The position numbers and the translations under genes were made by a program. The notes under the pieces are model-generated. The model did no database searches. It was given only the letters and a program-made list of their open reading frames with translations, and had not been told where the DNA came from. 64,000 nt of DNA from Sabellastarte sp. h YS-2021 (taxonomy: Eukaryota > Annelida > Polychaeta > Sabellida > Sabellidae), in assembly GCA_964017235.1 (NCBI GenBank), contig OZ024931.1:100892221-100956220 (forward strand), written 5' to 3'. Numbering within the stretch: the stretch's first letter is position 1; every line of letters starts with the position of its first letter. This document shows, in pieces, positions 1,235 through 64,000 of this stretch.

Positions 1235-1326
1235 CGTTTTCTTCAAATATTTTTTAAAAAGTCACACCAGTTATTGCAATAAATATGATATAATTAATAT
1301 ACTATAACACAATAAAATGATATAGA

Positions 1327-19879: not shown

Positions 19880-20540
19880 GTTAGGGATATTTAAATATGG
19901 ACTTCTTTATTATATGGATTTAATTTTGTCAAAGTTGTGATTTTTATGTCTCATGCAACAGCAACAACCAGGGTCATATTATGACAGGTACTCTGCATTG
20001 TTATTTTGGGGAGTCATACCTACACAGAGGTGACAGCCTATATCATTAGATGTCAAACTTGCTAACCCACAAGGACATTCTATTTTGTCGAGGATAAGAA
20101 ATCATATCTCAAGCAGTAAACTATTCCCACTAAAGGTAGCACAAGTGATAAAGCCTGCCTTTCCTCTCAGTTAATCACACATATTTAGTGTTTGATGTCA
20201 TTTTTATTGCATTAAATTTCATACACAAGTCACAGAGAAGAATATTATGTATTATTATTTGCTGTGCATAGTAATTTTTAAAACATTTACCTTAATATTG
20301 GACCAATTTTCCTCAAATCAAAAGGAACATAACCTCTAGAAATTTGCCATTAAATTGGTATAGATATTATATGGCTAGCTTCAATAAAACAATCACCAAA
20401 ACTATTTTAAACACAGTTCCAGCAAGATTGTGGATCACAACAGGTGTTCGTGTTCTTAAAATATTTTTAAAAAAATCACACCAGTTATTGCAATAAATAG
20501 GATATAATTAATATACTATAACACAATAAAATGATACAGA

Positions 20541-34466: not shown

Positions 34467-35793
34467 GTTAGGGATATTTAAATATGGACTTCTTTATTAT
34501 ATGGATTTAATTTTGTCAAAGTTGTGATTTTTATGTCTCATGCAACAGCAACAACCAGGGTCATATTATGACAGGTACTCTGCATTGTTATTTTGGGGAG
34601 TCATACCTACACAGAGGTGACAGCCTATATCATTAGATGTCAAACTTGCTAACCCACAAGGACATTCTATTTTGTCAAGGATAAGAAATCATATCTCAAG
34701 CAGTAAACTATTCCCACTAAAGGTAGCACAAGTGATAAAGCCTGCCTTTCCTCTCAGTTAATCACACATATTTAGTGTTTGATGTCATTTTTATTGCATT
34801 AAATTTCATACACAAGTCACAGAGAAGAATATTATGTATTATTATTTGCTGTGCATAGTAATTTTTAAAACATTTACCTTAATATTGGACCAATTTTCCT
34901 CAAATCAAAAGGAACATAACCTCTAGAAATTTGCCATTAAATTGGTATAGATATTATATGGCTAGCTTCAATAAAACAATCACCAAAACTATTTTAAACA
35001 CAGTTCCAGCAAGATTGTGGATCACAACAGGTGTTCGTGTTCTTCAAATATTTTTAAAAAAATCACACCAGTTATTGCAATAAATAGGATATAATTAATA
35101 TACTATAACACAATAAAATGATACAGAGTTAGGGACATTTAAATATGGACTTCTTTATTATGTGGATTTAATTTTGTCAAAGGTCAAAGTTGTGATTTTT
35201 ATGTCTCATGCAACAGCAACAGCCAGGGTCATATTATGAAAGGTACTCTGCATTGTCATTTTGGGGAGTCATACCTACACAGAGGTGACAGCCTATCATC
35301 AGATGTCAAACTTGCTAACCCACAAGGACATTCTATTTTGTCAAGCATAAGAAATCATATCAGAAGCACTAAACTATTCCCACTAAAGGTAGCACAAGTG
35401 ATAAAGCCTGCCTTTCCTCTCAGTTAATCACACATATTTAGTGTTTGATGTCATTTTTATTGCATTAAATTTCATCCACAAGTCACAGAGAAGAATGTTA
35501 TTTATTATTATTTGCTGTGCATAGTAATTTTTAAAACAATTATCTTAATATTGGACCAATTTTCCTCAAATCAAAAGGAACATAACCTCTAGAAATTTGC
35601 CTTTAAATTGGTATAGATATTATATTGCTAGCTTCAATAAAACAATCACAAAAATTATTTTAAACAGAGTTCCAGCAAGATTGTGGATCACACCAGGTGT
35701 TCGTTTTCTTCAAATATTTTTTAAAAAGTCACACCAGTTATTGCAATAAATATGATATAATTAATATACTATAACACAATAAAATGATATAGA
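34467..35793. repeat. Dimer 27: A + B-gamma
   Basis: B starts at 35128. A is GTCAAG, T5A7, GATACAG. Matches dimers 37 and 47. Frame open at 35236-35427. Confidence 0.95.
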
Positions 35794-37119
35794 GTTAGGG
35801 ATATTTAAATATGGACTTCTTTATTATATGGATTTAATTTTGTCAAAGTTGTGATTTTTATGTCTCATGCAACAGCAACAACCAGGGTCATATTATGACA
35901 GGTACTCTGCATTGTTATTTTGGGGAGTCATACCTACACAGAGGTGACAGCCTATATCATTAGATGTCAAACTTGCTAACCCACAAGGACATTCTATTTT
36001 GTCGAGGATAAGAAATCATATCTCAAGCAGTAAACTATTCCCACTAAAGGTAGCACAAGTGATAAAGCCTGCCTTTCCTCTCAGTTAATCACACATATTT
36101 AGTGTTTGATGTCATTTTTATTGCATTAAATTTCATACACAAGTCACAGAGAAGAATATTATGTATTATTATTTGCTGTGCATAGTAATTTTTAAAACAT
36201 TTACCTTAATATTGGACCAATTTTCCTCAAATCAAAAGGAACATAACCTCTAGAAATTTGCCATTAAATTGGTATAGATATTATATGGCTAGCTTCAATA
36301 AAACAATCACCAAAACTATTTTAAACACAGTTCCAGCAAGATTGTGGATCACAACAGGTGTTCGTGTTCTTCAAATATTTTAAAAAAAATCACACCAGTT
36401 ATTGCAATAAATAGGATATAATTAATATACTATAACACAATAAAATGATATAGAGTTAGGGACATTTAAATATGGACTTCTTTATTATGTGGATTTAATT
36501 TTGTCAAAGGTCAAAGTTGTGATTTTTATGTCTCATGCAACAGCAACAGCCAGGGTCATATTATGAAAGGTACTCTGCATTGTCATTTTGGGTAGTCATA
36601 CCTACACAGAGGTGACAGCCTATCATCAGATGTCAAACTTGCTAACCCACAAGGACATTCTATTTTGTCAAGCATAAGAAATCATATCAGAAGCACTAAA
36701 CTATTCCCACTAAAGGTAGCACAAGTGATAAAGCCTGCCTTTCCTCTCAGTTAATCACACATATTTAGTGTTTGATGTCATTTTTATTGCATTAAATTTC
36801 ATCCACAAGTCACAGAGAAGAATATTTTTATTATTATTTGCTGTGCATAGTAATTTTTAAAACAATTATCTTAATATTGGACCAATTTTCCTCAAATCAA
36901 AAGGAACATAACCTCTAGAAATTTGCCTTTAAATTGGTATAGATATTAGATTGCTAGCTTCAATAAAACAATCACAAAAATTATTTTAAACAGAGTGCCA
37001 GCAAGATTGTGGATCACACCAGGTGTTCGTTTTCTTCAAATATTTTTTAAAAAGTCACACCAGTTATTGCAATAAATATGATATAATTAATATACTATAA
37101 CACAATAAAATGATATAGA
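35794..37119. repeat. Dimer 28: A + B-alpha
   Basis: B starts at 36455. A is GTCGAG, T4A8. Matches dimers 38 and 48. Confidence 0.95.
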
Positions 37120-38446
37120 GTTAGGGATATTTAAATATGGACTTCTTTATTATATGGATTTAATTTTGTCAAAGTTGTGATTTTTATGTCTCATGCAACA
37201 GCAACAACCAGGGTCATATTATGACAGGTACTCTGCATTGTTATTTTGGGGAGTCATACCTACACAGAGGTGACAGCCTATATCATTAGATGTCAAACTT
37301 GCTAACCCACAAGGACATTCTATTTTGTCGAGGATAAGAAATCATATCTCAAGCAGTAAACTATTCCCACTAAAGGTAGCACAAGTGATAAAGCCTGCCT
37401 TTCCTCTCAGTTAATCACACATATTTAGTGTTTGATGTCATTTTTATTGCATTAAATTTCATACACAAGTCACAGAGAAGAATATTATGTATTATTATTT
37501 GCTGTGCATAGTAATTTTTAAAACATTTACCTTAATATTGGACCAATTTTCCTCAAATCAAAAGGAACATAACCTCTAGAAATTTGCCATTAAATTGGTA
37601 TAGATATTATATGGCTAGCTTCAATAAAACAATCACCAAAACTATTTTAAACACAGTTCCAGCAAGATTGTGGATCACAACAGGTGTTCGTGTTCTTCAA
37701 ATATTTTTAAAAAAATCACACCAGTTATTGCAATAAATAGGATATAATTAATATACTATAACACAATAAAATGATATAGAGTTAGGGACATTTAAATATG
37801 GACTTCTTTATTATGTGGATTTAATTTTGTCAAAGGTCAAAGTTGTGATTTTTATGTCTCATGCAACAGCAACAGCCAGGGTCATATTATGAAAGGTACT
37901 CTGCATTGTCATTTTGGGGAGTCATACCTACACAGAGGTGACAGCCTATCATCAGATGTCAAACTTGCTAACCCACAAGGACATTCTATTTTGTCAAGCA
38001 TAAGAAATCATATCAGAAGCACTAAACTATTCCCACTAAAGGTAGCACAAGTGATAAAGCCTGCCTTTCCTCTCAGTTAATCACACATATTTAGTGTTTG
38101 ATGTCATTTTTATTGCATTCAATTTCATCCACAAGTCACAGAGAAGAATGTTATTTATTATTATTTGCTGTGCATAGTAATTTTTAAAACAATTATCTTA
38201 ATATTGGACCAATTTTCCTCAAATCAAAAGGAACATAACCTCTAGAAATTTGCCTTTAAATTGGTATAGATATTATATTGCTAGCTTCAATAAAACAATC
38301 ACAAAAATTATTTTAAACAGAGTTCCAGCAAGATTGTGGATCACACCAGGTGTTCGTTTTCTTCAAATATTTTTTAAAAAGTCACACCAGTTATTGCAAT
38401 AAATATGATATAATTAATATACTATAACACAATAAAATGATATAGA
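37120..38446. repeat. Dimer 29: A + B-gamma
   Basis: B starts at 37781. A is GTCGAG, T5A7, GATATAG. B has GCATTCAATTT (C at 38120), shared only with dimer 39. Frame open at 37889-38080. Confidence 0.95.
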
Positions 38447-39772
38447 GTTAGGGATATTTAAATATGGACTTCTTTATTATATGGATTTAATTTTGTCAAA
38501 GTTGTGATTTTTATGTCTCATGCAACAGCAACAACCAGGGTCATATTATGACAGGTACTCTGCATTGTTATTTTGGGGAGTCATACCTACACAGAGGTGA
38601 CAGCCTATATCATTAGATGTCAAACTTGCTAACCCACAAGGACATTCTATTTTGTCGAGGATAAGAAATCATATCTCAAGCAGTAAACTATTCCCACTAA
38701 AGGTAGCACAAGTGATAAAGCCTGCCTTTCCTCTCAGTTAATCACACATATTTAGTGTTTGATGTCATTTTTATTGCATTAAATTTCATACACAAGTCAC
38801 AGAGAAGAATATTATGTATTATTATTTGCTGTGCATAGTAATTTTTAAAACATTTACCTTAATATTGGACCAATTTTCCTCAAATCAAAAGGAACATAAC
38901 CTCTAGAAATTTGCCATTAAATTGGTATAGATATTATATGGCTAGCTTCAATAAAACAATCACCAAAACTATTTTAAACACAGTTCCAGCAAGATTGTGG
39001 ATCACAACAGGTGTTCGTGTTCTTCAAATATTTTAAAAAAAATCACACCAGTTATTGCAATAAATAGGATATAATTAATATACTATAACACAATAAAATG
39101 ATATAGAGTTAGGGACATTTAAATATGGACTTCTTTATTATGTGGATTTAATTTTGTCAAAGGTCAAAGTTGTGATTTTTATGTCTCATGCAACAGCAAC
39201 AGCCAGGGTCATATTATGAAAGGTACTCTGCATTGTCATTTTGGGTAGTCATACCTACACAGAGGTGACAGCCTATCATCAGATGTCAAACTTGCTAACC
39301 CACAAGGACATTCTATTTTGTCAAGCATAAGAAATCATATCAGAAGCACTAAACTATTCCCACTAAAGGTAGCACAAGTGATAAAGCCTGCCTTTCCTCT
39401 CAGTTAATCACACATATTTAGTGTTTGATGTCATTTTTATTGCATTAAATTTCATCCACAAGTCACAGAGAAGAATATTTTTATTATTATTTGCTGTGCA
39501 TAGTAATTTTTAAAACAATTATCTTAATATTGGACCAATTTTCCTCAAATCAAAAGGAACATAACCTCTAGAAATTTGCCTTTAAATTGGTATAGATATT
39601 AGATTGCTAGCTTCAATAAAACAATCACAAAAATTATTTTAAACAGAGTGCCAGCAAGATTGTGGATCACACCAGGTGTTCGTTTTCTTCAAATATTTTT
39701 TAAAAAGTCACACCAGTTATTGCAATAAATATGATATAATTAATATACTATAACACAATAAAATGATATAGA
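38447..39772. repeat. Dimer 30: A + B-alpha
   Basis: B starts at 39108. A is GTCGAG, T4A8. Counterpart of dimer 40. Confidence 0.95.
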
Positions 39773-41099
39773 GTTAGGGATATTTAAATATGGACTTCTT
39801 TATTATATGGATTTAATTTTGTCAAAGTTGTGATTTTTATGTCTCATGCAACAGCAACAACCAGGGTCATATTATGACAGGTACTCTGCATTGTTATTTT
39901 GGGGAGTCATACCTACACAGAGGTGACAGCCTATATCATTAGATGTCAAACTTGCTAACCCACAAGGACATTCTATTTTGTCGAGGATAAGAAATCATAT
40001 CTCAAGCAGTAAACTATTCCCACTAAAGGTAGCACAAGTGATAAAGCCTGCCTTTCCTCTCAGTTAATCACACATATTTAGTGTTTGATGTCATTTTTAT
40101 TGCATTAAATTTCATACACAAGTCACAGAGAAGAATATTATGTATTATTATTTGCTGTGCATAGTAATTTTTAAAACATTTACCTTAATATTGGACCTAT
40201 TTTCCTCAAATCAAAAGGAACATAACCTCTAGAAATTTGCCATTAAATTGGTATAGATATTATATGGCTAGCTTCAATAAAACAATCACCAAAACTATTT
40301 TAAACACAGTTCCAGCAAGATTGTGGATCACAACAGGTGTTCGTGTTCTTCAAATATTTTAAAAAAAATCACACCAGTTATTGCAATAAATAGGATATAA
40401 TTAATATACTATAACACAATAAAATGATATAGAGTTAGGGACATTTAAATATGGACTTCTTTATTATGTGGATTTAATTTTGTCAAAGGTCAAAGTTGTG
40501 ATTTTTATGTCTCATGCAACAGCAACAGCCAGGGTCATATTATGAAAGATACTCTGCATTGTCATTTTGGGGAGTCATACCTACACAGAGGTGACAGCCT
40601 ATCATCAGATGTCAAACTTGCTAACCCACAAGGACATTCTATTTTGTCAAGCATAAGAAATCATATCTGAAGCACTAAACTATTCCCACTAAAGGTAGCA
40701 CAAGTGATAAAGCCTGCCTTTCCTCTCAGTTAATCACACATATTTAGTGTTTGATGTCATTTTTATTGCATTAAATATCATCCACAAGTCACAGAGAAGA
40801 ATATTATTTATTATTATTTGCTGTGCATAGTAATTTTTAAAACAATTATCTTAATATTGGACCAATTTTCCTCAAATCAAAAGGAACATAACCTCTAGAA
40901 ATTTGCCTTTAAATTGATATAGATATTATATTGCTAGCTTCAATAAAACAATCACAAAAATTATTTTAAACAGAGTTCCAGCAAGATTGTGGATCACACC
41001 AGGTGTTCGTTTTCTTCAAATATTTTTTAAAAAGTCACACCAGTTATTGCAATAAATATGATATAATTAATATACTATAACACAATAAACTGATATAGA
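39773..41099. repeat. Dimer 31: A + B-beta
   Basis: B starts at 40434. A is GTCGAG with ACCTAT. Counterpart of dimer 41. Confidence 0.95.
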
Positions 41100-42426
41100 G
41101 TTAGGGATATTTAAATATGGACTTCTTTATTATATGGATTTAATTTTGTCAAAGTTGTGATTTTTATGTCTCATGCAACAGCAACAACCAGGGTCATATT
41201 ATGACAGGTACTCTGCATTGTTATTTTGGGGAGTCATACCTACACAGAGGTGACAGCCTATATCATTAGATGTCAAACTTGCTAACCCACAAGGACATTC
41301 TATTTTGTCAAGGATAAGAAATCATATCTCAAGCAGTAAACTATTCCCACTAAAGGTAGCACAAGTGATAAAGCCTGCCTTTCCTCTCAGTTAATCACAC
41401 ATATTTAGTGTTTGATGTCATTTTTATTGCATTAAATTTCATACACAAGTCACAGAGAAGAATATTATGTATTATTATTTGCTGTGCATAGTAATTTTTA
41501 AAACATTTACCTTAATATTGGACCTATTTTCCTCAAATCAAAAGGAACATAACCTCTAGAAATTTGCCATTAAATTGGTATAGATATTATATGGCTAGCT
41601 TCAATAAAACAATCACCAAAACTATTTTAAACACAGTTCCAGCAAGATTGTGGATCACAACAGGTGTTCGTGTTCTTCAAATATTTTAAAAAAAATCACA
41701 CCAGTTATTGCAATAAATAGGATATAATTAATATACTATAACACAATAAAATGATATAGAGTTAGGGACATTTAAATATGGACTTCTTTATTATGTGGAT
41801 TTAATTTTGTCAAAGGTCAAAGTTGTGATTTTTATGTCTCATGCAACAGCAACAGCCAGGGTCATATTATGAAAGATACTCTGCATTGTCATTTTGGGGA
41901 GTCATACCTACACAGAGGTGACAGCCTATCATCAGATGTCAAACTTGCTAACCCACAAGGACATTCTATTTTGTCAAGCATAAGAAATCATATCTGAAGC
42001 ACTAAACTATTCCCACTAAAGGTAGCACAAGTGATAAAGCCTGCCTTTCCTCTCAGTTAATCACACATATTTAGTGTTTGATGTCATTTTTATTGCATTA
42101 AATATCATCCACAAGTCACAGAGAAGAATATTATTTATTATTATTTGCTGTGCATAGTAATTTTTAAAACAATTATCTTAATATTGGACCAATTTTCCTC
42201 AAATCAAAAGGAACATAACCTCTAGAAATTTGCCTTTAAATTGATATAGATATTATATTGCTAGCTTCAATAAAACAATCACAAAAATTATTTTAAACAG
42301 AGTTCCAGCAAGATTGTGGATCACACCAGGTGTTCGTTTTCTTCAAATATTTTTTAAAAAGTCACACCAGTTATTGCAATAAATATGATATAATTAATAT
42401 ACTATAACACAATAAACTGATATAGA
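41100..42426. repeat. Dimer 32: A + B-beta
   Basis: B starts at 41761. A is GTCAAG with ACCTAT, a combination seen only here and in dimer 42. Two beta dimers stand side by side. Confidence 0.95.
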
Positions 42427-43752
42427 GTTAGGGATATTTAAATATGGACTTCTTTATTATATGGATTTAATTTTGTCAAAGTTGTGATTTTTATGTCTCA
42501 TGCAACAGCAACAACCAGGGTCATATTATGACAGGTACTCTGCATTGTTATTTTGGGGAGTCATACCTACACAGAGGTGACAGCCTATATCATTAGATGT
42601 CAAACTTGCTAACCCACAAGGACATTCTATTTTGTCAAGGATAAGAAATCATATCTCAAGCAGTAAACTATTCCCACTAAAGGTAGCACAAGTGATAAAG
42701 CCTGCCTTTCCTCTCAGTTAATCACACATATTTAGTGTTTGATGTCATTTTTATTGCATTAAATTTCATACACAAGTCACAGAGAAGAATATTATGTATT
42801 ATTATTTGCTGTGCATAGTAATTTTTAAAACATTTACCTTAATATTGGACCAATTTTCCTCAAATCAAAAGGAACATAACCTCTAGAAATTTGCCATTAA
42901 ATTGGTATAGATATTATATGGCTAGCTTCAATAAAACAATCACCAAAACTATTTTAAACACAGTTCCAGCAAGATTGTGGATCACAACAGGTGTTCGTGT
43001 TCTTCAAATATTTTTTAAAAAATCACACCAGTTATTGCAATAAATAGGATATAATTAATATACTATAACACAATAAAATGATATAGAGTTAGGGACATTT
43101 AAATATGGACTTCTTTATTATGTGGATTTAATTTTGTCAAAGGTCAAAGTTGTGATTTTTATGTCTCATGCAACAGCAACAGCCAGGGTCATATTATGAA
43201 AGGTACTCTGCATTGTCATTTTGGGTAGTCATACCTACACAGAGGTGACAGCCTATCATCAGATGTCAAACTTGCTAACCCACAAGGACATTCTATTTTG
43301 TCAAGCATAAGAAATCATATCAGAAGCACTAAACTATTCCCACTAAAGGTAGCACAAGTGATAAAGCCTGCCTTTCCTCTCAGTTAATCACACATATTTA
43401 GTGTTTGATGTCATTTTTATTGCATTAAATTTCATCCACAAGTCACAGAGAAGAATATTTTTATTATTATTTGCTGTGCATAGTAATTTTTAAAACAATT
43501 ATCTTAATATTGGACCAATTTTCCTCAAATCAAAAGGAACATAACCTCTAGAAATTTGCCTTTAAATTGGTATAGATATTAGATTGCTAGCTTCAATAAA
43601 ACAATCACAAAAATTATTTTAAACAGAGTGCCAGCAAGATTGTGGATCACACCAGGTGTTCGTTTTCTTCAAATATTTTTTAAAAAGTCACACCAGTTAT
43701 TGCAATAAATATGATATAATTAATATACTATAACACAATAAAATGATATAGA
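42427..43752. repeat. Dimer 33: A + B-alpha
   Basis: B starts at 43088. A is GTCAAG, T6A6. Counterpart of dimer 43. Confidence 0.95.
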
Positions 43753-45079
43753 GTTAGGGATATTTAAATATGGACTTCTTTATTATATGGATTTAATTTT
43801 GTCAAAGTTGTGATTTTTATGTCTCATGCAACAGCAACAACCAGGGTCATATTATGACAGGTACTCTGCATTGTTATTTTGGGGAGTCATACCTACACAG
43901 AGGTGACAGCCTATATCATTAGATGTCAAACTTGCTAACCCACAAGGACATTCTATTTTGTCGAGGATAAGAAATCATATCTCAAGCAGTAAACTATTCC
44001 CACTAAAGGTAGCACAAGTGATAAAGCCTGCCTTTCCTCTCAGTTAATCACACATATTTAGTGTTTGATGTCATTTTTATTGCATTAAATTTCATACACA
44101 AGTCACAGAGAAGAATATTATGTATTATTATTTGCTGTGCATAGTAATTTTTAAAACATTTACCTTAATATTGGACCAATTTTCCTCAAATCAAAAGGAA
44201 CATAACCTCTAGAAATTTGCCATTAAATTGGTATAGATATTATATGGCTAGCTTCAATAAAACAATCACCAAAACTATTTTAAACACAGTTCCAGCAAGA
44301 TTGTGGATCACAACAGGTGTTCGTGTTCTTCAAATATTTTAAAAAAAATCACACCAGTTATTGCAATAAATAGGATATAATTAATATACTATAACACAAT
44401 AAAATGATATAGAGTTAGGGACATTTAAATATGGACTTCTTTATTATGTGGATTTAATTTTGTCAAAGGTCAAAGTTGTGATTTTTATGTCTCATGCAAC
44501 AGCAACAGCCAGGGTCATATTATGAAAGATACTCTGCATTGTCATTTTGGGGAGTCATACCTACACAGAGGTGACAGCCTATCATCAGATGTCAAACTTG
44601 CTAACCCACAAGGACATTCTATTTTGTCAAGCATAAGAAATCATATCTGAAGCACTAAACTATTCCCACTAAAGGTAGCACAAGTGATAAAGCCTGCCTT
44701 TCCTCTCAGTTAATCACACATATTTAGTGTTTGATGTCATTTTTATTGCATTAAATATCATCCACAAGTCACAGAGAAGAATATTATTTATTATTATTTG
44801 CTGTGCATAGTAATTTTTAAAACAATTATCTTAATATTGGACCAATTTTCCTCAAATCAAAAGGAACATAACCTCTAGAAATTTGCCTTTAAATTGATAT
44901 AGATATTATATGGCTAGCTTCAATAAAACAATCACAAAAATTATTTTAAACAGAGTTCCAGCAAGATTGTGGATCACACCAGGTGTTCGTTTTCTTCAAA
45001 TATTTTTTAAAAAGTCACACCAGTTATTGCAATAAATATGATATAATTAATATACTATAACACAATAAACTGATATAGA
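43753..45079. repeat. Dimer 34: A + B-beta
   Basis: B starts at 44414. B carries the A-type TATGGCTAG (GG at 44912-44913), shared only with dimer 44. A has intact CACACAT, unlike dimer 44. Confidence 0.95.
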
Positions 45080-46406
45080 GTTAGGGATATTTAAATATGG
45101 ACTTCTTTATTATATGGATTTAATTTTGTCAAAGTTGTGATTTTTATGTCTCATGCAACAGCAACAACCAGGGTCATATTATGACAGGTACTCTGCATTG
45201 TTATTTTGGGGAGTCATACCTACACAGAGGTGACAGCCTATATCATTAGATGTCAAACTTGCTAACCCACAAGGACATTCTATTTTGTCAAGGATAAGAA
45301 ATCATATCTCAAGCAGTAAACTATTCCCACTAAAGGTAGCACAAGTGATAAAGCCTGCCTTTCCTCTCAGTTAATCACACATATTTAGTGTTTGATGTCA
45401 TTTTTATTGCATTAAATTTCATACACAAGTCACAGAGAAGAATATTATGTATTATTATTTGCTGTGCATAGTAATTTTTAAAACATTTACCTTAATATTG
45501 GACCAATTTTCCTCAAATCAAAAGGAACATAACCTCTAGAAATTTGCCATTAAATTGGTATAGATATTATATGGCTAGCTTCAATAAAACAATCACCAAA
45601 ACTATTTTAAACACAGTTCCAGCAAGATTGTGGATCACAACAGGTGTTCGTGTTCTTCAAATATTTTTAAAAAAATCACACCAGTTATTGCAATAAATAG
45701 GATATAATTAATATACTATAACACAATAAAATGATACAGAGTTAGGGACATTTAAATATGGACTTCTTTATTATGTGGATTTAATTTTGTCAAAGGTCAA
45801 AGTTGTGATTTTTATGTCTCATGCAACAGCAACAGCCAGGGTCATATTATGAAAGGTACTCTGCATTGTCATTTTGGGGAGTCATACCTACACAGAGGTG
45901 ACAGCCTATCATCAGATGTCAAACTTGCTAACCCACAAGGACATTCTATTTTGTCAAGCATAAGAAATCATATCAGAAGCACTAAACTATTCCCACTAAA
46001 GGTAGCACAAGTGATAAAGCCTGCCTTTCCTCTCAGTTAATCACACATATTTAGTGTTTGATGTCATTTTTATTGCATTAAATTTCATCCACAAGTCACA
46101 GAGAAGAATGTTATTTATTATTATTTGCTGTGCATAGTAATTTTTAAAACAATTATCTTAATATTGGACCAATTTTCCTCAAATCAAAAGGAACATAACC
46201 TCTAGAAATTTGCCTTTAAATTGGTATAGATATTATATTGCTAGCTTCAATAAAACAATCACAAAAATTATTTTAAACAGAGTTCCAGCAAGATTGTGGA
46301 TCACACCAGGTGTTCGTTTTCTTCAAATATTTTTTAAAAAGTCACACCAGTTATTGCAATAAATATGATATAATTAATATACTATAACACAATAAAATGA
46401 TATAGA
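45080..46406. repeat. Dimer 35: A + B-gamma
   Basis: B starts at 45741. A is GTCAAG, T5A7, GATACAG. Frame open at 45849-46040. Counterpart of dimer 45. Confidence 0.95.
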
Positions 46407-47733
46407 GTTAGGGATATTTAAATATGGACTTCTTTATTATATGGATTTAATTTTGTCAAAGTTGTGATTTTTATGTCTCATGCAACAGCAACAACCAGGG
46501 TCATATTATGACAGGTACTCTGCATTGTTATTTTGGGGAGTCATACCTACACAGAGGTGACAGCCTATATCATTAGATGTCAAACTTGCTAACCCACAAG
46601 GACATTCTATTTTGTCGAGGATAAGAAATCATATCTCAAGCAGTAAACTATTCCCACTAAAGGTAGCACAAGTGATAAAGCCTGCCTTTCCTCTCAGTTA
46701 ATCACACATATTTAGTGTTTGATGTCATTTTTATTGCATTAAATTTCATACACAAGTCACAGAGAAGAATATTATGTATTATTATTTGCTGTGCATAGTA
46801 ATTTTTAAAACATTTACCTTAATATTGGACCAATTTTCCTCAAATCAAAAGGAACATAACCTCTAGAAATTTGCCATTAAATTGGTATAGATATTATATG
46901 GCTAGCTTCAATAAAACAATCACCAAAACTATTTTAAACACAGTTCCAGCAAGATTGTGGATCACAACAGGTGTTCGTGTTCTTCAAATATTTTAAAAAA
47001 AATCACACCAGTTATTGCAATAAATAGGATATAATTAATATACTATAACACAATAAAATGATATAGAGTTAGGGACATTTAAATATGGACTTCTTTATTA
47101 TGTGGATTTAATTTTGTCAAAGGTCAAAGTTGTGATTTTTATGTCTCATGCAACAGCAACAGCCAGGGTCATATTATGAAAGATACTCTGCATTGTCATT
47201 TTGGGGAGTCATACCTACACAGAGGTGACAGCCTATCATCAGATGTCAAACTTGCTAACCCACAAGGACATTCTATTTTGTCAAGCATAAGAAATCATAT
47301 CTGAAGCACTAAACTATTCCCACTAAAGGTAGCACAAGTGATAAAGCCTGCCTTTCCTCTCAGTTAATCACACATATTTAGTGTTTGATGTCATTTTTAT
47401 TGCATTAAATATCATCCACAAGTCACAGAGAAGAATATTATTTATTATTATTTGCTGTGCATAGTAATTTTTAAAACAATTATCTTAATATTGGACCAAT
47501 TTTCCTCAAATCAAAAGGAACATAACCTCTAGAAATTTGCCTTTAAATTGATATAGATATTATATTGCTAGCTTCAATAAAACAATCACAAAAATTATTT
47601 TAAACAGAGTTCCAGCAAGATTGTGGATCACACCAGGTGTTCGTTTTCTTCAAATATTTTTTAAAAAGTCACACCAGTTATTGCAATAAATATGATATAA
47701 TTAATATACTATAACACAATAAACTGATATAGA
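46407..47733. repeat. Dimer 36: A + B-beta
   Basis: B starts at 47068. A is GTCGAG, CACACAT, T4A8. Last dimer of the first super-repeat copy. Confidence 0.95.
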
Positions 47734-50386: not shown

Positions 50387-51713
50387 GTTAGGGATATTTA
50401 AATATGGACTTCTTTATTATATGGATTTAATTTTGTCAAAGTTGTGATTTTTATGTCTCATGCAACAGCAACAACCAGGGTCATATTATGACAGGTACTC
50501 TGCATTGTTATTTTGGGGAGTCATACCTACACAGAGGTGACAGCCTATATCATTAGATGTCAAACTTGCTAACCCACAAGGACATTCTATTTTGTCGAGG
50601 ATAAGAAATCATATCTCAAGCAGTAAACTATTCCCACTAAAGGTAGCACAAGTGATAAAGCCTGCCTTTCCTCTCAGTTAATCACACATATTTAGTGTTT
50701 GATGTCATTTTTATTGCATTAAATTTCATACACAAGTCACAGAGAAGAATATTATGTATTATTATTTGCTGTGCATAGTAATTTTTAAAACATTTACCTT
50801 AATATTGGACCAATTTTCCTCAAATCAAAAGGAACATAACCTCTAGAAATTTGCCATTAAATTGGTATAGATATTATATGGCTAGCTTCAATAAAACAAT
50901 CACCAAAACTATTTTAAACACAGTTCCAGCAAGATTGTGGATCACAACAGGTGTTCGTGTTCTTCAAATATTTTTAAAAAAATCACACCAGTTATTGCAA
51001 TAAATAGGATATAATTAATATACTATAACACAATAAAATGATATAGAGTTAGGGACATTTAAATATGGACTTCTTTATTATGTGGATTTAATTTTGTCAA
51101 AGGTCAAAGTTGTGATTTTTATGTCTCATGCAACAGCAACAGCCAGGGTCATATTATGAAAGGTACTCTGCATTGTCATTTTGGGGAGTCATACCTACAC
51201 AGAGGTGACAGCCTATCATCAGATGTCAAACTTGCTAACCCACAAGGACATTCTATTTTGTCAAGCATAAGAAATCATATCAGAAGCACTAAACTATTCC
51301 CACTAAAGGTAGCACAAGTGATAAAGCCTGCCTTTCCTCTCAGTTAATCACACATATTTAGTGTTTGATGTCATTTTTATTGCATTCAATTTCATCCACA
51401 AGTCACAGAGAAGAATGTTATTTATTATTATTTGCTGTGCATAGTAATTTTTAAAACAATTATCTTAATATTGGACCAATTTTCCTCAAATCAAAAGGAA
51501 CATAACCTCTAGAAATTTGCCTTTAAATTGGTATAGATATTATATTGCTAGCTTCAATAAAACAATCACAAAAATTATTTTAAACAGAGTTCCAGCAAGA
51601 TTGTGGATCACACCAGGTGTTCGTTTTCTTCAAATATTTTTTAAAAAGTCACACCAGTTATTGCAATAAATATGATATAATTAATATACTATAACACAAT
51701 AAAATGATATAGA
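50387..51713. repeat. Dimer 39: A + B-gamma
   Basis: B starts at 51048. B has GCATTCAATTT (C at 51387), as in dimer 29. Frame open at 51156-51347. Confidence 0.95.
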
Positions 51714-53039
51714 GTTAGGGATATTTAAATATGGACTTCTTTATTATATGGATTTAATTTTGTCAAAGTTGTGATTTTTATGTCTCATGCAACAGCAACA
51801 ACCAGGGTCATATTATGACAGGTACTCTGCATTGTTATTTTGGGGAGTCATACCTACACAGAGGTGACAGCCTATATCATTAGATGTCAAACTTGCTAAC
51901 CCACAAGGACATTCTATTTTGTCGAGGATAAGAAATCATATCTCAAGCAGTAAACTATTCCCACTAAAGGTAGCACAAGTGATAAAGCCTGCCTTTCCTC
52001 TCAGTTAATCACACATATTTAGTGTTTGATGTCATTTTTATTGCATTAAATTTCATACACAAGTCACAGAGAAGAATATTATGTATTATTATTTGCTGTG
52101 CATAGTAATTTTTAAAACATTTACCTTAATATTGGACCAATTTTCCTCAAATCAAAAGGAACATAACCTCTAGAAATTTGCCTTTAAATTGGTATAGATA
52201 TTATATGGCTAGCTTCAATAAAACAATCACCAAAACTATTTTAAACACAGTTCCAGCAAGATTGTGGATCACAACAGGTGTTCGTGTTCTTCAAATATTT
52301 TAAAAAAAATCACACCAGTTATTGCAATAAATAGGATATAATTAATATACTATAACACAATAAAATGATATAGAGTTAGGGACATTTAAATATGGACTTC
52401 TTTATTATGTGGATTTAATTTTGTCAAAGGTCAAAGTTGTGATTTTTATGTCTCATGCAACAGCAACAGCCAGGGTCATATTATGAAAGGTACTCTGCAT
52501 TGTCATTTTGGGTAGTCATACCTACACAGAGGTGACAGCCTATCATCAGATGTCAAACTTGCTAACCCACAAGGACATTCTATTTTGTCAAGCATAAGAA
52601 ATCATATCAGAAGCACTAAACTATTCCCACTAAAGGTAGCACAAGTGATAAAGCCTGCCTTTCCTCTCAGTTAATCACACATATTTAGTGTTTGATGTCA
52701 TTTTTATTGCATTAAATTTCATCCACAAGTCACAGAGAAGAATATTTTTATTATTATTTGCTGTGCATAGTAATTTTTAAAACAATTATCTTAATATTGG
52801 ACCAATTTTCCTCAAATCAAAAGGAACATAACCTCTAGAAATTTGCCTTTAAATTGGTATAGATATTAGATTGCTAGCTTCAATAAAACAATCACAAAAA
52901 TTATTTTAAACAGAGTGCCAGCAAGATTGTGGATCACACCAGGTGTTCGTTTTCTTCAAATATTTTTTAAAAAGTCACACCAGTTATTGCAATAAATATG
53001 ATATAATTAATATACTATAACACAATAAAATGATATAGA
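51714..53039. repeat. Dimer 40: A + B-alpha
   Basis: B starts at 52375. A has the B-type TTGCCTTTAAATT (near 52181) where other A monomers have TTGCCATTAAATT. This is one of two differences noticed from the first super-repeat copy. Confidence 0.95.
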
Positions 53040-54366
53040 GTTAGGGATATTTAAATATGGACTTCTTTATTATATGGATTTAATTTTGTCAAAGTTGTGA
53101 TTTTTATGTCTCATGCAACAGCAACAACCAGGGTCATATTATGACAGGTACTCTGCATTGTTATTTTGGGGAGTCATACCTACACAGAGGTGACAGCCTA
53201 TATCATTAGATGTCAAACTTGCTAACCCACAAGGACATTCTATTTTGTCGAGGATAAGAAATCATATCTCAAGCAGTAAACTATTCCCACTAAAGGTAGC
53301 ACAAGTGATAAAGCCTGCCTTTCCTCTCAGTTAATCACACATATTTAGTGTTTGATGTCATTTTTATTGCATTAAATTTCATACACAAGTCACAGAGAAG
53401 AATATTATGTATTATTATTTGCTGTGCATAGTAATTTTTAAAACATTTACCTTAATATTGGACCTATTTTCCTCAAATCAAAAGGAACATAACCTCTAGA
53501 AATTTGCCATTAAATTGGTATAGATATTATATGGCTAGCTTCAATAAAACAATCACCAAAACTATTTTAAACACAGTTCCAGCAAGATTGTGGATCACAA
53601 CAGGTGTTCGTGTTCTTCAAATATTTTAAAAAAAATCACACCAGTTATTGCAATAAATAGGATATAATTAATATACTATAACACAATAAAATGATATAGA
53701 GTTAGGGACATTTAAATATGGACTTCTTTATTATGTGGATTTAATTTTGTCAAAGGTCAAAGTTGTGATTTTTATGTCTCATGCAACAGCAACAGCCAGG
53801 GTCATATTATGAAAGATACTCTGCATTGTCATTTTGGGGAGTCATACCTACACAGAGGTGACAGCCTATCATCAGATGTCAAACTTGCTAACCCACAAGG
53901 ACATTCTATTTTGTCAAGCATAAGAAATCATATCTGAAGCACTAAACTATTCCCACTAAAGGTAGCACAAGTGATAAAGCCTGCCTTTCCTCTCAGTTAA
54001 TCACACATATTTAGTGTTTGATGTCATTTTTATTGCATTAAATATCATCCACAAGTCACAGAGAAGAATATTATTTATTATTATTTGCTGTGCATAGTAA
54101 TTTTTAAAACAATTATCTTAATATTGGACCAATTTTCCTCAAATCAAAAGGAACATAACCTCTAGAAATTTGCCTTTAAATTGATATAGATATTATATTG
54201 CTAGCTTCAATAAAACAATCACAAAAATTATTTTAAACAGAGTTCCAGCAAGATTGTGGATCACACCAGGTGTTCGTTTTCTTCAAATATTTTTTAAAAA
54301 GTCACACCAGTTATTGCAATAAATATGATATAATTAATATACTATAACACAATAAACTGATATAGA
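53040..54366. repeat. Dimer 41: A + B-beta
   Basis: B starts at 53701. A is GTCGAG with ACCTAT. Counterpart of dimer 31. Confidence 0.95.
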
Positions 54367-55693
54367 GTTAGGGATATTTAAATATGGACTTCTTTATTAT
54401 ATGGATTTAATTTTGTCAAAGTTGTGATTTTTATGTCTCATGCAACAGCAACAACCAGGGTCATATTATGACAGGTACTCTGCATTGTTATTTTGGGGAG
54501 TCATACCTACACAGAGGTGACAGCCTATATCATTAGATGTCAAACTTGCTAACCCACAAGGACATTCTATTTTGTCAAGGATAAGAAATCATATCTCAAG
54601 CAGTAAACTATTCCCACTAAAGGTAGCACAAGTGATAAAGCCTGCCTTTCCTCTCAGTTAATCACACATATTTAGTGTTTGATGTCATTTTTATTGCATT
54701 AAATTTCATACACAAGTCACAGAGAAGAATATTATGTATTATTATTTGCTGTGCATAGTAATTTTTAAAACATTTACCTTAATATTGGACCTATTTTCCT
54801 CAAATCAAAAGGAACATAACCTCTAGAAATTTGCCATTAAATTGGTATAGATATTATATGGCTAGCTTCAATAAAACAATCACCAAAACTATTTTAAACA
54901 CAGTTCCAGCAAGATTGTGGATCACAACAGGTGTTCGTGTTCTTCAAATATTTTAAAAAAAATCACACCAGTTATTGCAATAAATAGGATATAATTAATA
55001 TACTATAACACAATAAAATGATATAGAGTTAGGGACATTTAAATATGGACTTCTTTATTATGTGGATTTAATTTTGTCAAAGGTCAAAGTTGTGATTTTT
55101 ATGTCTCATGCAACAGCAACAGCCAGGGTCATATTATGAAAGATACTCTGCATTGTCATTTTGGGGAGTCATACCTACACAGAGGTGACAGCCTATCATC
55201 AGATGTCAAACTTGCTAACCCACAAGGACATTCTATTTTGTCAAGCATAAGAAATCATATCTGAAGCACTAAACTATTCCCACTAAAGGTAGCACAAGTG
55301 ATAAAGCCTGCCTTTCCTCTCAGTTAATCACACATATTTAGTGTTTGATGTCATTTTTATTGCATTAAATATCATCCACAAGTCACAGAGAAGAATATTA
55401 TTTATTATTATTTGCTGTGCATAGTAATTTTTAAAACAATTATCTTAATATTGGACCAATTTTCCTCAAATCAAAAGGAACATAACCTCTAGAAATTTGC
55501 CTTTAAATTGATATAGATATTATATTGCTAGCTTCAATAAAACAATCACAAAAATTATTTTAAACAGAGTTCCAGCAAGATTGTGGATCACACCAGGTGT
55601 TCGTTTTCTTCAAATATTTTTTAAAAAGTCACACCAGTTATTGCAATAAATATGATATAATTAATATACTATAACACAATAAACTGATATAGA
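54367..55693. repeat. Dimer 42: A + B-beta
   Basis: B starts at 55028. A is GTCAAG with ACCTAT. Counterpart of dimer 32. Confidence 0.95.
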
Positions 55694-57019
55694 GTTAGGG
55701 ATATTTAAATATGGACTTCTTTATTATATGGATTTAATTTTGTCAAAGTTGTGATTTTTATGTCTCATGCAACAGCAACAACCAGGGTCATATTATGACA
55801 GGTACTCTGCATTGTTATTTTGGGGAGTCATACCTACACAGAGGTGACAGCCTATATCATTAGATGTCAAACTTGCTAACCCACAAGGACATTCTATTTT
55901 GTCAAGGATAAGAAATCATATCTCAAGCAGTAAACTATTCCCACTAAAGGTAGCACAAGTGATAAAGCCTGCCTTTCCTCTCAGTTAATCACACATATTT
56001 AGTGTTTGATGTCATTTTTATTGCATTAAATTTCATACACAAGTCACAGAGAAGAATATTATGTATTATTATTTGCTGTGCATAGTAATTTTTAAAACAT
56101 TTACCTTAATATTGGACCAATTTTCCTCAAATCAAAAGGAACATAACCTCTAGAAATTTGCCATTAAATTGGTATAGATATTATATGGCTAGCTTCAATA
56201 AAACAATCACCAAAACTATTTTAAACACAGTTCCAGCAAGATTGTGGATCACAACAGGTGTTCGTGTTCTTCAAATATTTTTTAAAAAATCACACCAGTT
56301 ATTGCAATAAATAGGATATAATTAATATACTATAACACAATAAAATGATATAGAGTTAGGGACATTTAAATATGGACTTCTTTATTATGTGGATTTAATT
56401 TTGTCAAAGGTCAAAGTTGTGATTTTTATGTCTCATGCAACAGCAACAGCCAGGGTCATATTATGAAAGGTACTCTGCATTGTCATTTTGGGTAGTCATA
56501 CCTACACAGAGGTGACAGCCTATCATCAGATGTCAAACTTGCTAACCCACAAGGACATTCTATTTTGTCAAGCATAAGAAATCATATCAGAAGCACTAAA
56601 CTATTCCCACTAAAGGTAGCACAAGTGATAAAGCCTGCCTTTCCTCTCAGTTAATCACACATATTTAGTGTTTGATGTCATTTTTATTGCATTAAATTTC
56701 ATCCACAAGTCACAGAGAAGAATATTTTTATTATTATTTGCTGTGCATAGTAATTTTTAAAACAATTATCTTAATATTGGACCAATTTTCCTCAAATCAA
56801 AAGGAACATAACCTCTAGAAATTTGCCTTTAAATTGGTATAGATATTAGATTGCTAGCTTCAATAAAACAATCACAAAAATTATTTTAAACAGAGTGCCA
56901 GCAAGATTGTGGATCACACCAGGTGTTCGTTTTCTTCAAATATTTTTTAAAAAGTCACACCAGTTATTGCAATAAATATGATATAATTAATATACTATAA
57001 CACAATAAAATGATATAGA
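55694..57019. repeat. Dimer 43: A + B-alpha
   Basis: B starts at 56355. A is GTCAAG, T6A6. Counterpart of dimer 33. Confidence 0.95.
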
Positions 57020-58344
57020 GTTAGGGATATTTAAATATGGACTTCTTTATTATATGGATTTAATTTTGTCAAAGTTGTGATTTTTATGTCTCATGCAACA
57101 GCAACAACCAGGGTCATATTATGACAGGTACTCTGCATTGTTATTTTGGGGAGTCATACCTACACAGAGGTGACAGCCTATATCATTAGATGTCAAACTT
57201 GCTAACCCACAAGGACATTCTATTTTGTCGAGGATAAGAAATCATATCTCAAGCAGTAAACTATTCCCACTAAAGGTAGCACAAGTGATAAAGCCTGCCT
57301 TTCCTCTCAGTTAATCACATATTTAGTGTTTGATGTCATTTTTATTGCATTAAATTTCATACACAAGTCACAGAGAAGAATATTATGTATTATTATTTGC
57401 TGTGCATAGTAATTTTTAAAACATTTACCTTAATATTGGACCAATTTTCCTCAAATCAAAAGGAACATAACCTCTAGAAATTTGCCATTAAATTGGTATA
57501 GATATTATATGGCTAGCTTCAATAAAACAATCACCAAAACTATTTTAAACACAGTTCCAGCAAGATTGTGGATCACAACAGGTGTTCGTGTTCTTCAAAT
57601 ATTTTAAAAAAAATCACACCAGTTATTGCAATAAATAGGATATAATTAATATACTATAACACAATAAAATGATATAGAGTTAGGGACATTTAAATATGGA
57701 CTTCTTTATTATGTGGATTTAATTTTGTCAAAGGTCAAAGTTGTGATTTTTATGTCTCATGCAACAGCAACAGCCAGGGTCATATTATGAAAGATACTCT
57801 GCATTGTCATTTTGGGGAGTCATACCTACACAGAGGTGACAGCCTATCATCAGATGTCAAACTTGCTAACCCACAAGGACATTCTATTTTGTCAAGCATA
57901 AGAAATCATATCTGAAGCACTAAACTATTCCCACTAAAGGTAGCACAAGTGATAAAGCCTGCCTTTCCTCTCAGTTAATCACACATATTTAGTGTTTGAT
58001 GTCATTTTTATTGCATTAAATATCATCCACAAGTCACAGAGAAGAATATTATTTATTATTATTTGCTGTGCATAGTAATTTTTAAAACAATTATCTTAAT
58101 ATTGGACCAATTTTCCTCAAATCAAAAGGAACATAACCTCTAGAAATTTGCCTTTAAATTGATATAGATATTATATGGCTAGCTTCAATAAAACAATCAC
58201 AAAAATTATTTTAAACAGAGTTCCAGCAAGATTGTGGATCACACCAGGTGTTCGTTTTCTTCAAATATTTTTTAAAAAGTCACACCAGTTATTGCAATAA
58301 ATATGATATAATTAATATACTATAACACAATAAACTGATATAGA
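57020..58344. repeat. Dimer 44: A (659 bp) + B-beta
   Basis: B starts at 57679. A has CACAT where dimer 34 has CACACAT. B has A-type TATGGCTAG (GG at 58177-58178). Confidence 0.95.
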
Positions 58345-59671
58345 GTTAGGGATATTTAAATATGGACTTCTTTATTATATGGATTTAATTTTGTCAAAGT
58401 TGTGATTTTTATGTCTCATGCAACAGCAACAACCAGGGTCATATTATGACAGGTACTCTGCATTGTTATTTTGGGGAGTCATACCTACACAGAGGTGACA
58501 GCCTATATCATTAGATGTCAAACTTGCTAACCCACAAGGACATTCTATTTTGTCAAGGATAAGAAATCATATCTCAAGCAGTAAACTATTCCCACTAAAG
58601 GTAGCACAAGTGATAAAGCCTGCCTTTCCTCTCAGTTAATCACACATATTTAGTGTTTGATGTCATTTTTATTGCATTAAATTTCATACACAAGTCACAG
58701 AGAAGAATATTATGTATTATTATTTGCTGTGCATAGTAATTTTTAAAACATTTACCTTAATATTGGACCAATTTTCCTCAAATCAAAAGGAACATAACCT
58801 CTAGAAATTTGCCATTAAATTGGTATAGATATTATATGGCTAGCTTCAATAAAACAATCACCAAAACTATTTTAAACACAGTTCCAGCAAGATTGTGGAT
58901 CACAACAGGTGTTCGTGTTCTTCAAATATTTTTAAAAAAATCACACCAGTTATTGCAATAAATAGGATATAATTAATATACTATAACACAATAAAATGAT
59001 ACAGAGTTAGGGACATTTAAATATGGACTTCTTTATTATGTGGATTTAATTTTGTCAAAGGTCAAAGTTGTGATTTTTATGTCTCATGCAACAGCAACAG
59101 CCAGGGTCATATTATGAAAGGTACTCTGCATTGTCATTTTGGGGAGTCATACCTACACAGAGGTGACAGCCTATCATCAGATGTCAAACTTGCTAACCCA
59201 CAAGGACATTCTATTTTGTCAAGCATAAGAAATCATATCAGAAGCACTAAACTATTCCCACTAAAGGTAGCACAAGTGATAAAGCCTGCCTTTCCTCTCA
59301 GTTAATCACACATATTTAGTGTTTGATGTCATTTTTATTGCATTAAATTTCATCCACAAGTCACAGAGAAGAATGTTATTTATTATTATTTGCTGTGCAT
59401 AGTAATTTTTAAAACAATTATCTTAATATTGGACCAATTTTCCTCAAATCAAAAGGAACATAACCTCTAGAAATTTGCCTTTAAATTGGTATAGATATTA
59501 TATTGCTAGCTTCAATAAAACAATCACAAAAATTATTTTAAACAGAGTTCCAGCAAGATTGTGGATCACACCAGGTGTTCGTTTTCTTCAAATATTTTTT
59601 AAAAAGTCACACCAGTTATTGCAATAAATATGATATAATTAATATACTATAACACAATAAAATGATATAGA
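58345..59671. repeat. Dimer 45: A + B-gamma
   Basis: B starts at 59006. A is GTCAAG, T5A7, GATACAG. Frame open at 59114-59305. Confidence 0.95.
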
Positions 59672-60998
59672 GTTAGGGATATTTAAATATGGACTTCTTT
59701 ATTATATGGATTTAATTTTGTCAAAGTTGTGATTTTTATGTCTCATGCAACAGCAACAACCAGGGTCATATTATGACAGGTACTCTGCATTGTTATTTTG
59801 GGGAGTCATACCTACACAGAGGTGACAGCCTATATCATTAGATGTCAAACTTGCTAACCCACAAGGACATTCTATTTTGTCGAGGATAAGAAATCATATC
59901 TCAAGCAGTAAACTATTCCCACTAAAGGTAGCACAAGTGATAAAGCCTGCCTTTCCTCTCAGTTAATCACACATATTTAGTGTTTGATGTCATTTTTATT
60001 GCATTAAATTTCATACACAAGTCACAGAGAAGAATATTATGTATTATTATTTGCTGTGCATAGTAATTTTTAAAACATTTACCTTAATATTGGACCAATT
60101 TTCCTCAAATCAAAAGGAACATAACCTCTAGAAATTTGCCATTAAATTGGTATAGATATTATATGGCTAGCTTCAATAAAACAATCACCAAAACTATTTT
60201 AAACACAGTTCCAGCAAGATTGTGGATCACAACAGGTGTTCGTGTTCTTCAAATATTTTAAAAAAAATCACACCAGTTATTGCAATAAATAGGATATAAT
60301 TAATATACTATAACACAATAAAATGATATAGAGTTAGGGACATTTAAATATGGACTTCTTTATTATGTGGATTTAATTTTGTCAAAGGTCAAAGTTGTGA
60401 TTTTTATGTCTCATGCAACAGCAACAGCCAGGGTCATATTATGAAAGATACTCTGCATTGTCATTTTGGGGAGTCATACCTACACAGAGGTGACAGCCTA
60501 TCATCAGATGTCAAACTTGCTAACCCACAAGGACATTCTATTTTGTCAAGCATAAGAAATCATATCTGAAGCACTAAACTATTCCCACTAAAGGTAGCAC
60601 AAGTGATAAAGCCTGCCTTTCCTCTCAGTTAATCACACATATTTAGTGTTTGATGTCATTTTTATTGCATTAAATATCATCCACAAGTCACAGAGAAGAA
60701 TATTATTTATTATTATTTGCTGTGCATAGTAATTTTTAAAACAATTATCTTAATATTGGACCAATTTTCCTCAAATCAAAAGGAACATAACCTCTAGAAA
60801 TTTGCCTTTAAATTGATATAGATATTATATTGCTAGCTTCAATAAAACAATCACAAAAATTATTTTAAACAGAGTTCCAGCAAGATTGTGGATCACACCA
60901 GGTGTTCGTTTTCTTCAAATATTTTTTAAAAAGTCACACCAGTTATTGCAATAAATATGATATAATTAATATACTATAACACAATAAACTGATATAGA
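59672..60998. repeat. Dimer 46: A + B-beta
   Basis: B starts at 60333. A is GTCGAG, T4A8. Last dimer of the second super-repeat copy. Confidence 0.95.
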
Positions 60999-62325
60999 GT
61001 TAGGGATATTTAAATATGGACTTCTTTATTATATGGATTTAATTTTGTCAAAGTTGTGATTTTTATGTCTCATGCAACAGCAACAACCAGGGTCATATTA
61101 TGACAGGTACTCTGCATTGTTATTTTGGGGAGTCATACCTACACAGAGGTGACAGCCTATATCATTAGATGTCAAACTTGCTAACCCACAAGGACATTCT
61201 ATTTTGTCAAGGATAAGAAATCATATCTCAAGCAGTAAACTATTCCCACTAAAGGTAGCACAAGTGATAAAGCCTGCCTTTCCTCTCAGTTAATCACACA
61301 TATTTAGTGTTTGATGTCATTTTTATTGCATTAAATTTCATACACAAGTCACAGAGAAGAATATTATGTATTATTATTTGCTGTGCATAGTAATTTTTAA
61401 AACATTTACCTTAATATTGGACCAATTTTCCTCAAATCAAAAGGAACATAACCTCTAGAAATTTGCCATTAAATTGGTATAGATATTATATGGCTAGCTT
61501 CAATAAAACAATCACCAAAACTATTTTAAACACAGTTCCAGCAAGATTGTGGATCACAACAGGTGTTCGTGTTCTTCAAATATTTTTAAAAAAATCACAC
61601 CAGTTATTGCAATAAATAGGATATAATTAATATACTATAACACAATAAAATGATACAGAGTTAGGGACATTTAAATATGGACTTCTTTATTATGTGGATT
61701 TAATTTTGTCAAAGGTCAAAGTTGTGATTTTTATGTCTCATGCAACAGCAACAGCCAGGGTCATATTATGAAAGGTACTCTGCATTGTCATTTTGGGGAG
61801 TCATACCTACACAGAGGTGACAGCCTATCATCAGATGTCAAACTTGCTAACCCACAAGGACATTCTATTTTGTCAAGCATAAGAAATCATATCAGAAGCA
61901 CTAAACTATTCCCACTAAAGGTAGCACAAGTGATAAAGCCTGCCTTTCCTCTCAGTTAATCACACATATTTAGTGTTTGATGTCATTTTTATTGCATTAA
62001 ATTTCATCCACAAGTCACAGAGAAGAATGTTATTTATTATTATTTGCTGTGCATAGTAATTTTTAAAACAATTATCTTAATATTGGACCAATTTTCCTCA
62101 AATCAAAAGGAACATAACCTCTAGAAATTTGCCTTTAAATTGGTATAGATATTATATTGCTAGCTTCAATAAAACAATCACAAAAATTATTTTAAACAGA
62201 GTTCCAGCAAGATTGTGGATCACACCAGGTGTTCGTTTTCTTCAAATATTTTTTAAAAAGTCACACCAGTTATTGCAATAAATATGATATAATTAATATA
62301 CTATAACACAATAAAATGATATAGA
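60999..62325. repeat. Dimer 47: A + B-gamma
   Basis: B starts at 61660. A is GTCAAG, T5A7, GATACAG. Opens the third super-repeat copy. Frame open at 61768-61959. Confidence 0.95.
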
Positions 62326-63651
62326 GTTAGGGATATTTAAATATGGACTTCTTTATTATATGGATTTAATTTTGTCAAAGTTGTGATTTTTATGTCTCAT
62401 GCAACAGCAACAACCAGGGTCATATTATGACAGGTACTCTGCATTGTTATTTTGGGGAGTCATACCTACACAGAGGTGACAGCCTATATCATTAGATGTC
62501 AAACTTGCTAACCCACAAGGACATTCTATTTTGTCGAGGATAAGAAATCATATCTCAAGCAGTAAACTATTCCCACTAAAGGTAGCACAAGTGATAAAGC
62601 CTGCCTTTCCTCTCAGTTAATCACACATATTTAGTGTTTGATGTCATTTTTATTGCATTAAATTTCATACACAAGTCACAGAGAAGAATATTATGTATTA
62701 TTATTTGCTGTGCATAGTAATTTTTAAAACATTTACCTTAATATTGGACCAATTTTCCTCAAATCAAAAGGAACATAACCTCTAGAAATTTGCCATTAAA
62801 TTGGTATAGATATTATATGGCTAGCTTCAATAAAACAATCACCAAAACTATTTTAAACACAGTTCCAGCAAGATTGTGGATCACAACAGGTGTTCGTGTT
62901 CTTCAAATATTTTAAAAAAAATCACACCAGTTATTGCAATAAATAGGATATAATTAATATACTATAACACAATAAAATGATATAGAGTTAGGGACATTTA
63001 AATATGGACTTCTTTATTATGTGGATTTAATTTTGTCAAAGGTCAAAGTTGTGATTTTTATGTCTCATGCAACAGCAACAGCCAGGGTCATATTATGAAA
63101 GGTACTCTGCATTGTCATTTTGGGTAGTCATACCTACACAGAGGTGACAGCCTATCATCAGATGTCAAACTTGCTAACCCACAAGGACATTCTATTTTGT
63201 CAAGCATAAGAAATCATATCAGAAGCACTAAACTATTCCCACTAAAGGTAGCACAAGTGATAAAGCCTGCCTTTCCTCTCAGTTAATCACACATATTTAG
63301 TGTTTGATGTCATTTTTATTGCATTAAATTTCATCCACAAGTCACAGAGAAGAATATTTTTATTATTATTTGCTGTGCATAGTAATTTTTAAAACAATTA
63401 TCTTAATATTGGACCAATTTTCCTCAAATCAAAAGGAACATAACCTCTAGAAATTTGCCTTTAAATTGGTATAGATATTAGATTGCTAGCTTCAATAAAA
63501 CAATCACAAAAATTATTTTAAACAGAGTGCCAGCAAGATTGTGGATCACACCAGGTGTTCGTTTTCTTCAAATATTTTTTAAAAAGTCACACCAGTTATT
63601 GCAATAAATATGATATAATTAATATACTATAACACAATAAAATGATATAGA
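62326..63651. repeat. Dimer 48: A + B-alpha
   Basis: B starts at 62987. Counterpart of dimers 28 and 38. Confidence 0.95.
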
Positions 63652-64000
63652 GTTAGGGATATTTAAATATGGACTTCTTTATTATATGGATTTAATTTTG
63701 TCAAAGTTGTGATTTTTATGTCTCATGCAACAGCAACAACCAGGGTCATATTATGACAGGTACTCTGCATTGTTATTTTGGGGAGTCATACCTACACAGA
63801 GGTGACAGCCTATATCATTAGATGTCAAACTTGCTAACCCACAAGGACATTCTATTTTGTCGAGGATAAGAAATCATATCTCAAGCAGTAAACTATTCCC
63901 ACTAAAGGTAGCACAAGTGATAAAGCCTGCCTTTCCTCTCAGTTAATCACACATATTTAGTGTTTGATGTCATTTTTATTGCATTAAATTTCATACACAA
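63652..64000. repeat. Dimer 49, partial (first 349 bp of A)
   Basis: Cut by the window edge. GTCGAG and CACACAT agree with the A of dimers 29 and 39, as the super-repeat predicts. Confidence 0.93.

Follow-up and report, generated by a model that had tools for sequence, protein, structure and literature searches.

A block of ten satellite dimers was found repeated head to tail, in one register and almost without change, from position 34171 to the end of the window (the whole stretch of 64,000 nt analysed here, contig OZ024931.1 of Sabellastarte sp. h YS-2021). The block is probably a 20-monomer higher-order (HOR) unit that unequal exchange in register has amplified recently, within a dimer-based satellite with three main dimer subtypes. 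Assembly false duplication is the main rival to this reading.

The repeated block

Unit and copies: Read from dimer 27, the subtype order of the unit is C B C B A A B A C A. Dimers 27–38 match dimers 37–48 one for one; the numbers of differing alignment columns along this series (lag of ten dimers) were 0 0 0 1 0 0 0 2 0 0 0 0, the "2" being one 2-bp indel. Thus the copies, compared over ca. 16.56 kb, differ by one substitution and one 2-bp loss (Table 1); between the two monomers of the dimer, 26 of 659 aligned columns are mismatched. The unit measures ten dimers exactly, the whole repeat stays in the same dimer register, and three dimer subtypes recur in its ten slots, as types do inside the unit of a cascading HOR. 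It fills 2.25 copies, a lower limit, the third copy meeting the end of the window; the last 330 bases of the window are identical to their counterpart. To the left of the block, seven mismatches were found between 33728 and 34170, all in the C-type part of the chimeric dimer 26.

Earlier description: The first-pass annotation, made from the letters alone, had reported that dimers 27–36 recur as dimers 37–46 and begin again at dimer 47, in 2.2 tandem copies of a 13.27-kb unit with only two differences over about 13 kb; the recurrence and the unit were recovered, and the same count of two held over the longer ca. 16.56 kb. The markers on which it relied are present: C at 38120 and 51387 (column 982, in 2 of 48 dimers), GG at 44912 and 58177 (column 1141, likewise in 2 of 48), and the CA loss in dimer 44 that shifts the offset from 13,267 to 13,265. 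Its left edge (34467) had to be moved about 300 bp further left, to 34171. The term "third-order" calls for a qualification: the ten-dimer level is one of four, the others being the monomer, the dimer and a local double dimer.

Table 1: Features of the array and of the repeated block (positions in the window).
Feature	Position	Strand	Remark
Underlying satellite, 48 complete dimers (consensus 1,327 bp)	20..63670	.	anchor-based cutting; array continues past both window ends
Copy 1, 13,267-bp unit, 10 dimers/20 monomers	34171..47437	.	identity at offset 13,267 begins at 34171
Copy 2, 13,265 bp	47438..60702	.	2 bp shorter through CA loss; offset goes from 13,267 to 13,265 at the CA site
Copy 3, start, 3,298 bp	60703..64000	.	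ends with the window; letter-for-letter equal to the first 3,298 bases of copies 1 and 2
Sole substitution between copies	38916 (A, dimer 30) vs 52183 (T, dimer 40)	.	the paralogous monomer also has T here
2-bp difference between copies	44049..44050 (CA, dimer 34); lost at 57316 (dimer 44)	.	CA-less allele occurs elsewhere in the array
Dimer 26, chimera	33159..34485	.	subtype C to ca. 34170, subtype A from the next markers; holds the left edge of the repeated block
Double-dimer unit, 2,651 bp, three identical tandem copies (dimers 10–15)	11946–19898		strongest block besides the ten-dimer one

Controls: The run statistic scored, across lags 1–39, the longest unbroken series of dimer pairs that differed in no more than two columns; the real dimer order scored 12, and 2,000 shuffles of it scored from 2 to 7. 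In a redraw control the subtype order was kept and dimers of the same subtype were drawn from dimers 1–26, subtype C being drawn from all 48 (dimers 1–26 contain one C dimer); the mean was 28.3 events and the minimum in 20,000 draws was 6, against 2 observed. Same-subtype pairs within dimers 1–26 (n = 111) differed by a mean of 2.7 events per pair; about 10% of them showed no difference, so that single identical dimers mean little and the ordered run alone shows the repeat. A 40-mer distance count over the whole window gave its highest peak at an offset of 13,264 ± 15 (0.895 of positions); other offsets reach 0.87, the peak being barely the highest because all dimers are alike and the signal sits in the variable columns.

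The underlying array

Monomers and dimers: Satellite DNA fills the entire window, as a single head-to-tail array of a 1,327-bp dimer. The monomer anchor gave 97 matches on the + strand and none on the − strand of the window; spacings: 661 bp (39), 666 bp (28), 665 bp (19), 659 bp (9), 658 bp (1), i.e., head-to-tail monomers of one family, 658–666 bp apart. The 48 complete dimers obtained by anchor-based cutting are 1,319–1,327 bp long, and 41 of 1,327 columns are variable among them. The consensus dimer consists of monomers of 661 and 666 bp that are 96% identical (633 of 659 aligned columns agree; gaps of 7 and 2 bases). GC content is 31% throughout the window; CpG occurs at 8% of expectation (3 in the consensus dimer, 31.5 expected), and CA (1.61 of expectation) is far more enriched than TG (1.10) over positions 1–64000.

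Searches: No internal sub-repeat of the monomer was found beyond short matches of 14–21 bases. For the second monomer consensus the best internal ungapped period was 435 bp (38% identity), not clearly above 300 shuffles (P 0.087); periods of 166, 221 and 332 bp gave 26–28% identity. Tandem Repeats Finder, the longest period of which is 500 bp, returned 0 rows; Rfam gave nothing at gathering scores for 34000–38000; a distant-mode search of phage records with one 1,328-base stretch gave no match, and exact matching of a 25-base pattern against viral contigs and prokaryote genome contigs gave nothing. Within 34000–38000, three open reading frames of at least 60 aa proved to be one 63-aa frame repeated and were not taken as a gene.

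Subtypes: Ten linked columns in the second monomer define the three main subtypes, with 19 dimers of subtype A, 18 of B and 8 of C; the remainder are two C/A chimeras (dimers 25 and 26) and one A/B chimera (dimer 4). The recombinant dimer 4 (3991–5316) follows subtype A as far as column 781 and subtype B from column 877 onward, with the switch at ca. 4771–4867. Dimers 25 and 26 (31832–34485) carry the same C/A chimera; it probably arose once and was later duplicated, since both share it and differ by only two columns. The three chimeric dimers point to recombination between dimers. Dimer 2 (1346–2664) has a private 8-bp deletion (alignment columns 785–792); no other dimer has as many private substitutions as dimer 8 (9293–10619), with four, and three of these lie in a span of 39 columns (1242–1280).

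Smaller repeats: Dimers 10–15 are an independent, perfectly homogeneous in-register amplification; the preceding dimer 9 differs from dimer 11 in one column. Further near-matches were seen at lags of 2, 4, 8, 12, 15, 20 and 24 dimers, mostly where subtypes A and B alternate. An older ten-dimer footprint extending leftward (dimers 22–24 have the subtypes of dimers 32–34) was considered and set aside, since alternating subtypes match in this way at several lags.

Differences between the copies

Alleles: Each of the two differences consists of a base or allele that also occurs at other places in the array, which suggests that they were introduced by short gene conversion. The CA-less allele is also present in eight other dimers (5, 7, 10, 12, 14, 20, 22 and 24), all of subtype A like dimer 44. 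Independent slippage is possible at this site, because the loss shortens (CA)3 to (CA)2; recurrent mutation or a consensus error would give the same look as conversion.

Array-wide pattern: Minor substitution alleles equal the consensus base of the paralogous monomer in 8 of 30 cases (P about 4e-9 for random mutations), rare ones (in at most 3 dimers) in 4 of 16 (ca. 0.2 expected; P about 5e-5) and singletons in 3 of 11 (P about 3e-4); these P values assume independent and uniform mutations, and satellites may violate both assumptions. The common matching alleles may reflect older, shared variation, and short-tract conversion fits the rare ones, the putative tracts being flanked by unconverted markers 35–83 bp apart. 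Ordinary mutation also goes on in the array, since at 12 of the 16 rare alleles the paralogous monomer has another base. The same pattern of paralogous alleles would result from polishing with misplaced reads. A stronger proposal, that the post-duplication differences were copied in and that the array diversifies mainly by short-tract (under ca. 85 bp) conversion between the two monomers of the dimer, faster than by point mutation, is put forward tentatively and is rather doubtful.

Age: With one substitution in 16,563 bp, a mammalian rate of 2.2e-9 per site and year would give an age of ca. 14 thousand years (the interval running from 0.35 to 76 thousand), a figure that is illustrative only, because this rate may not be that of the host and the substitution may be a conversion.

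Origin of the block

Preferred route: A run of ten dimers would have been duplicated head to tail to give the 13.27-kb, 20-monomer higher-order unit, now present 2.25 times or more; the most likely process is unequal exchange between misaligned arrays, sister or homologous, that had paired in register. The third copy, identical in its visible part, would point to repeated exchange or a burst, and short gene conversion may then have made the two later differences. Unequal exchange is favoured because the unit is a whole number of dimers with the register kept, as homology-driven exchange predicts. Counted for amplification were the twelve consecutive dimer pairs with two events in all, against the mean for single same-subtype pairs in dimers 1–26; the second in-register duplication in the same window (dimers 10–15); and the subtype chimeras (dimers 4, 25 and 26).

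False duplication: The first-pass annotation had left the choice between recent amplification and an assembly duplication; the sequence supports the former, and the latter stays as a rival, though an unlikely one. Two haplotypes, or two passes of a repeat graph, would have been laid end to end, the differences being heterozygous sites or consensus errors. Very low divergence is what such an error would show, and two differences in ca. 16.56 kb lie within the range of allelic difference; each variant also recurs at other places in the array, as mis-assigned polishing reads would give. A simple join of two haplotypes is, however, insufficient, as the window includes 3,298 bp of a third copy without any difference; the smaller in-register amplification of dimers 10–15 suggests that the array does amplify, although the same doubt applies there. 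Assembly errors of this class are documented (PMC9516828, in the part cited).

Other routes: Rolling-circle reinsertion or break-induced replication, with the window at the left edge of a long homogeneous array, would account for more than two copies, for a third copy identical as far as it is visible and for a block that reaches the window end; yet only 2.25 copies are visible, no sequence feature demands a circle or a replication fork, and the exact register is equally compatible with homology-driven exchange. This origin is considered improbable, more so than false duplication; the sequence itself reads the same for unequal exchange and for replication- or circle-based amplification, because unequal exchange leaves no scar in identical sequence. 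That three dimer subtypes in an irregular array came back in the same order by chance can practically be dismissed: alternating subtypes do give a six-dimer near-match at the same lag of 10 (dimers 9–14 with 19–24), but shuffling never exceeded 7 against the real run of 12, the private markers come back at the right places, and no same-subtype redraw fell below 6 events.

Relation to known satellites

HOR arrays: The present array works like published HORs and conforms to the HOR definition apart from copy number, with 2.25 copies before the window ends. In the cited part of PMC11050224, cascading HORs are HORs with repeated types inside the unit, exemplified by a 20mer of human chromosome 15 in 164 copies. 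The unit described here is like these alpha-satellite repeats in its many monomers with recurring types, its tandem array of alike units and its shorter internal periods; it is unlike the chromosome 15 20mer in monomer length (661–666 bp vs ca. 171 bp) and in the 2.25 copies visible. The monomers here are 4% apart, under the 5% type cut-off given there, and the subtypes are accordingly dimer haplotypes. Marmoset dimeric alpha satellite, in the passages cited from PMC13041921, has dimer haplotypes ("dimhaps"), and the most frequent of its X-specific HORs is a 28-mer; common to both systems are the dimer as basic unit, arrays told apart by dimer haplotypes and a larger HOR on top, whereas the marmoset case concerns ca. 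170-bp monomers of simian alpha satellite with chromosome-scale evidence and ours one window. Membership in alpha satellite was rejected on monomer length (661 and 666 bp, not ca. 171 bp). The core of the 17-bp CENP-B box gave 0 matches with at most 2 mismatches in the window; with 3 mismatches 269 matches were counted against a shuffle mean of 314, shuffles being an unfair yardstick for a window that is one unit repeated 48 times.

Long monomers: TMAsat of sirenians, as described in the cited part of PMC8421680, is similar in its long monomer (ca. 684–687 bp) and two-part organisation. Its segments 1–332 and 333–687 are 55.8% identical; its AT content is 54.6% and 56.3% in two species, vs 69% here; and it has CENP-B box-like motifs, of which none was seen here. 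It differs in composition and internal structure as described there. The crayfish Pontastacus leptodactylus has satellite units of 14 to 664 bp in the data cited (PMC7859515), and the longest resembles the present monomer, the comparison being one of length alone; CpG depletion as strong as in the present array would be more vertebrate-like, probably mammal-like.

Other reports: According to the cited portions of the respective papers, eight lemur species have each their own centromere repeat (monomers 41–548 bp, GC from 28.7%; PMC13228423), the cattle Y centromere carries a 3.7-kb HOR of a 73-bp monomer (PMC11436988), and new human HORs are dated to ca. 13–23 thousand years on one chromosome and 80–153 thousand on chromosome 11 (PMC11062924). 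A literature search by sequence, size and type gave no matching satellite among the papers listed; subscription papers lay mostly outside its scope, and the satellite may already be published. Three size matches were discarded, being in the text cited an ITS length, an RNA and a gene rather than satellite units.

Significance

The accepted picture of satellite evolution is unchanged, such array growth being already well known. Were the conversion-led diversification considered above true, standard clocks would misdate duplications of this kind. The array is a clean base-level example of a satellite gaining a new hierarchical level, with the block edge and both later changes visible; if real, it would allow exchange and conversion events to be counted against point mutations in a non-alpha satellite.
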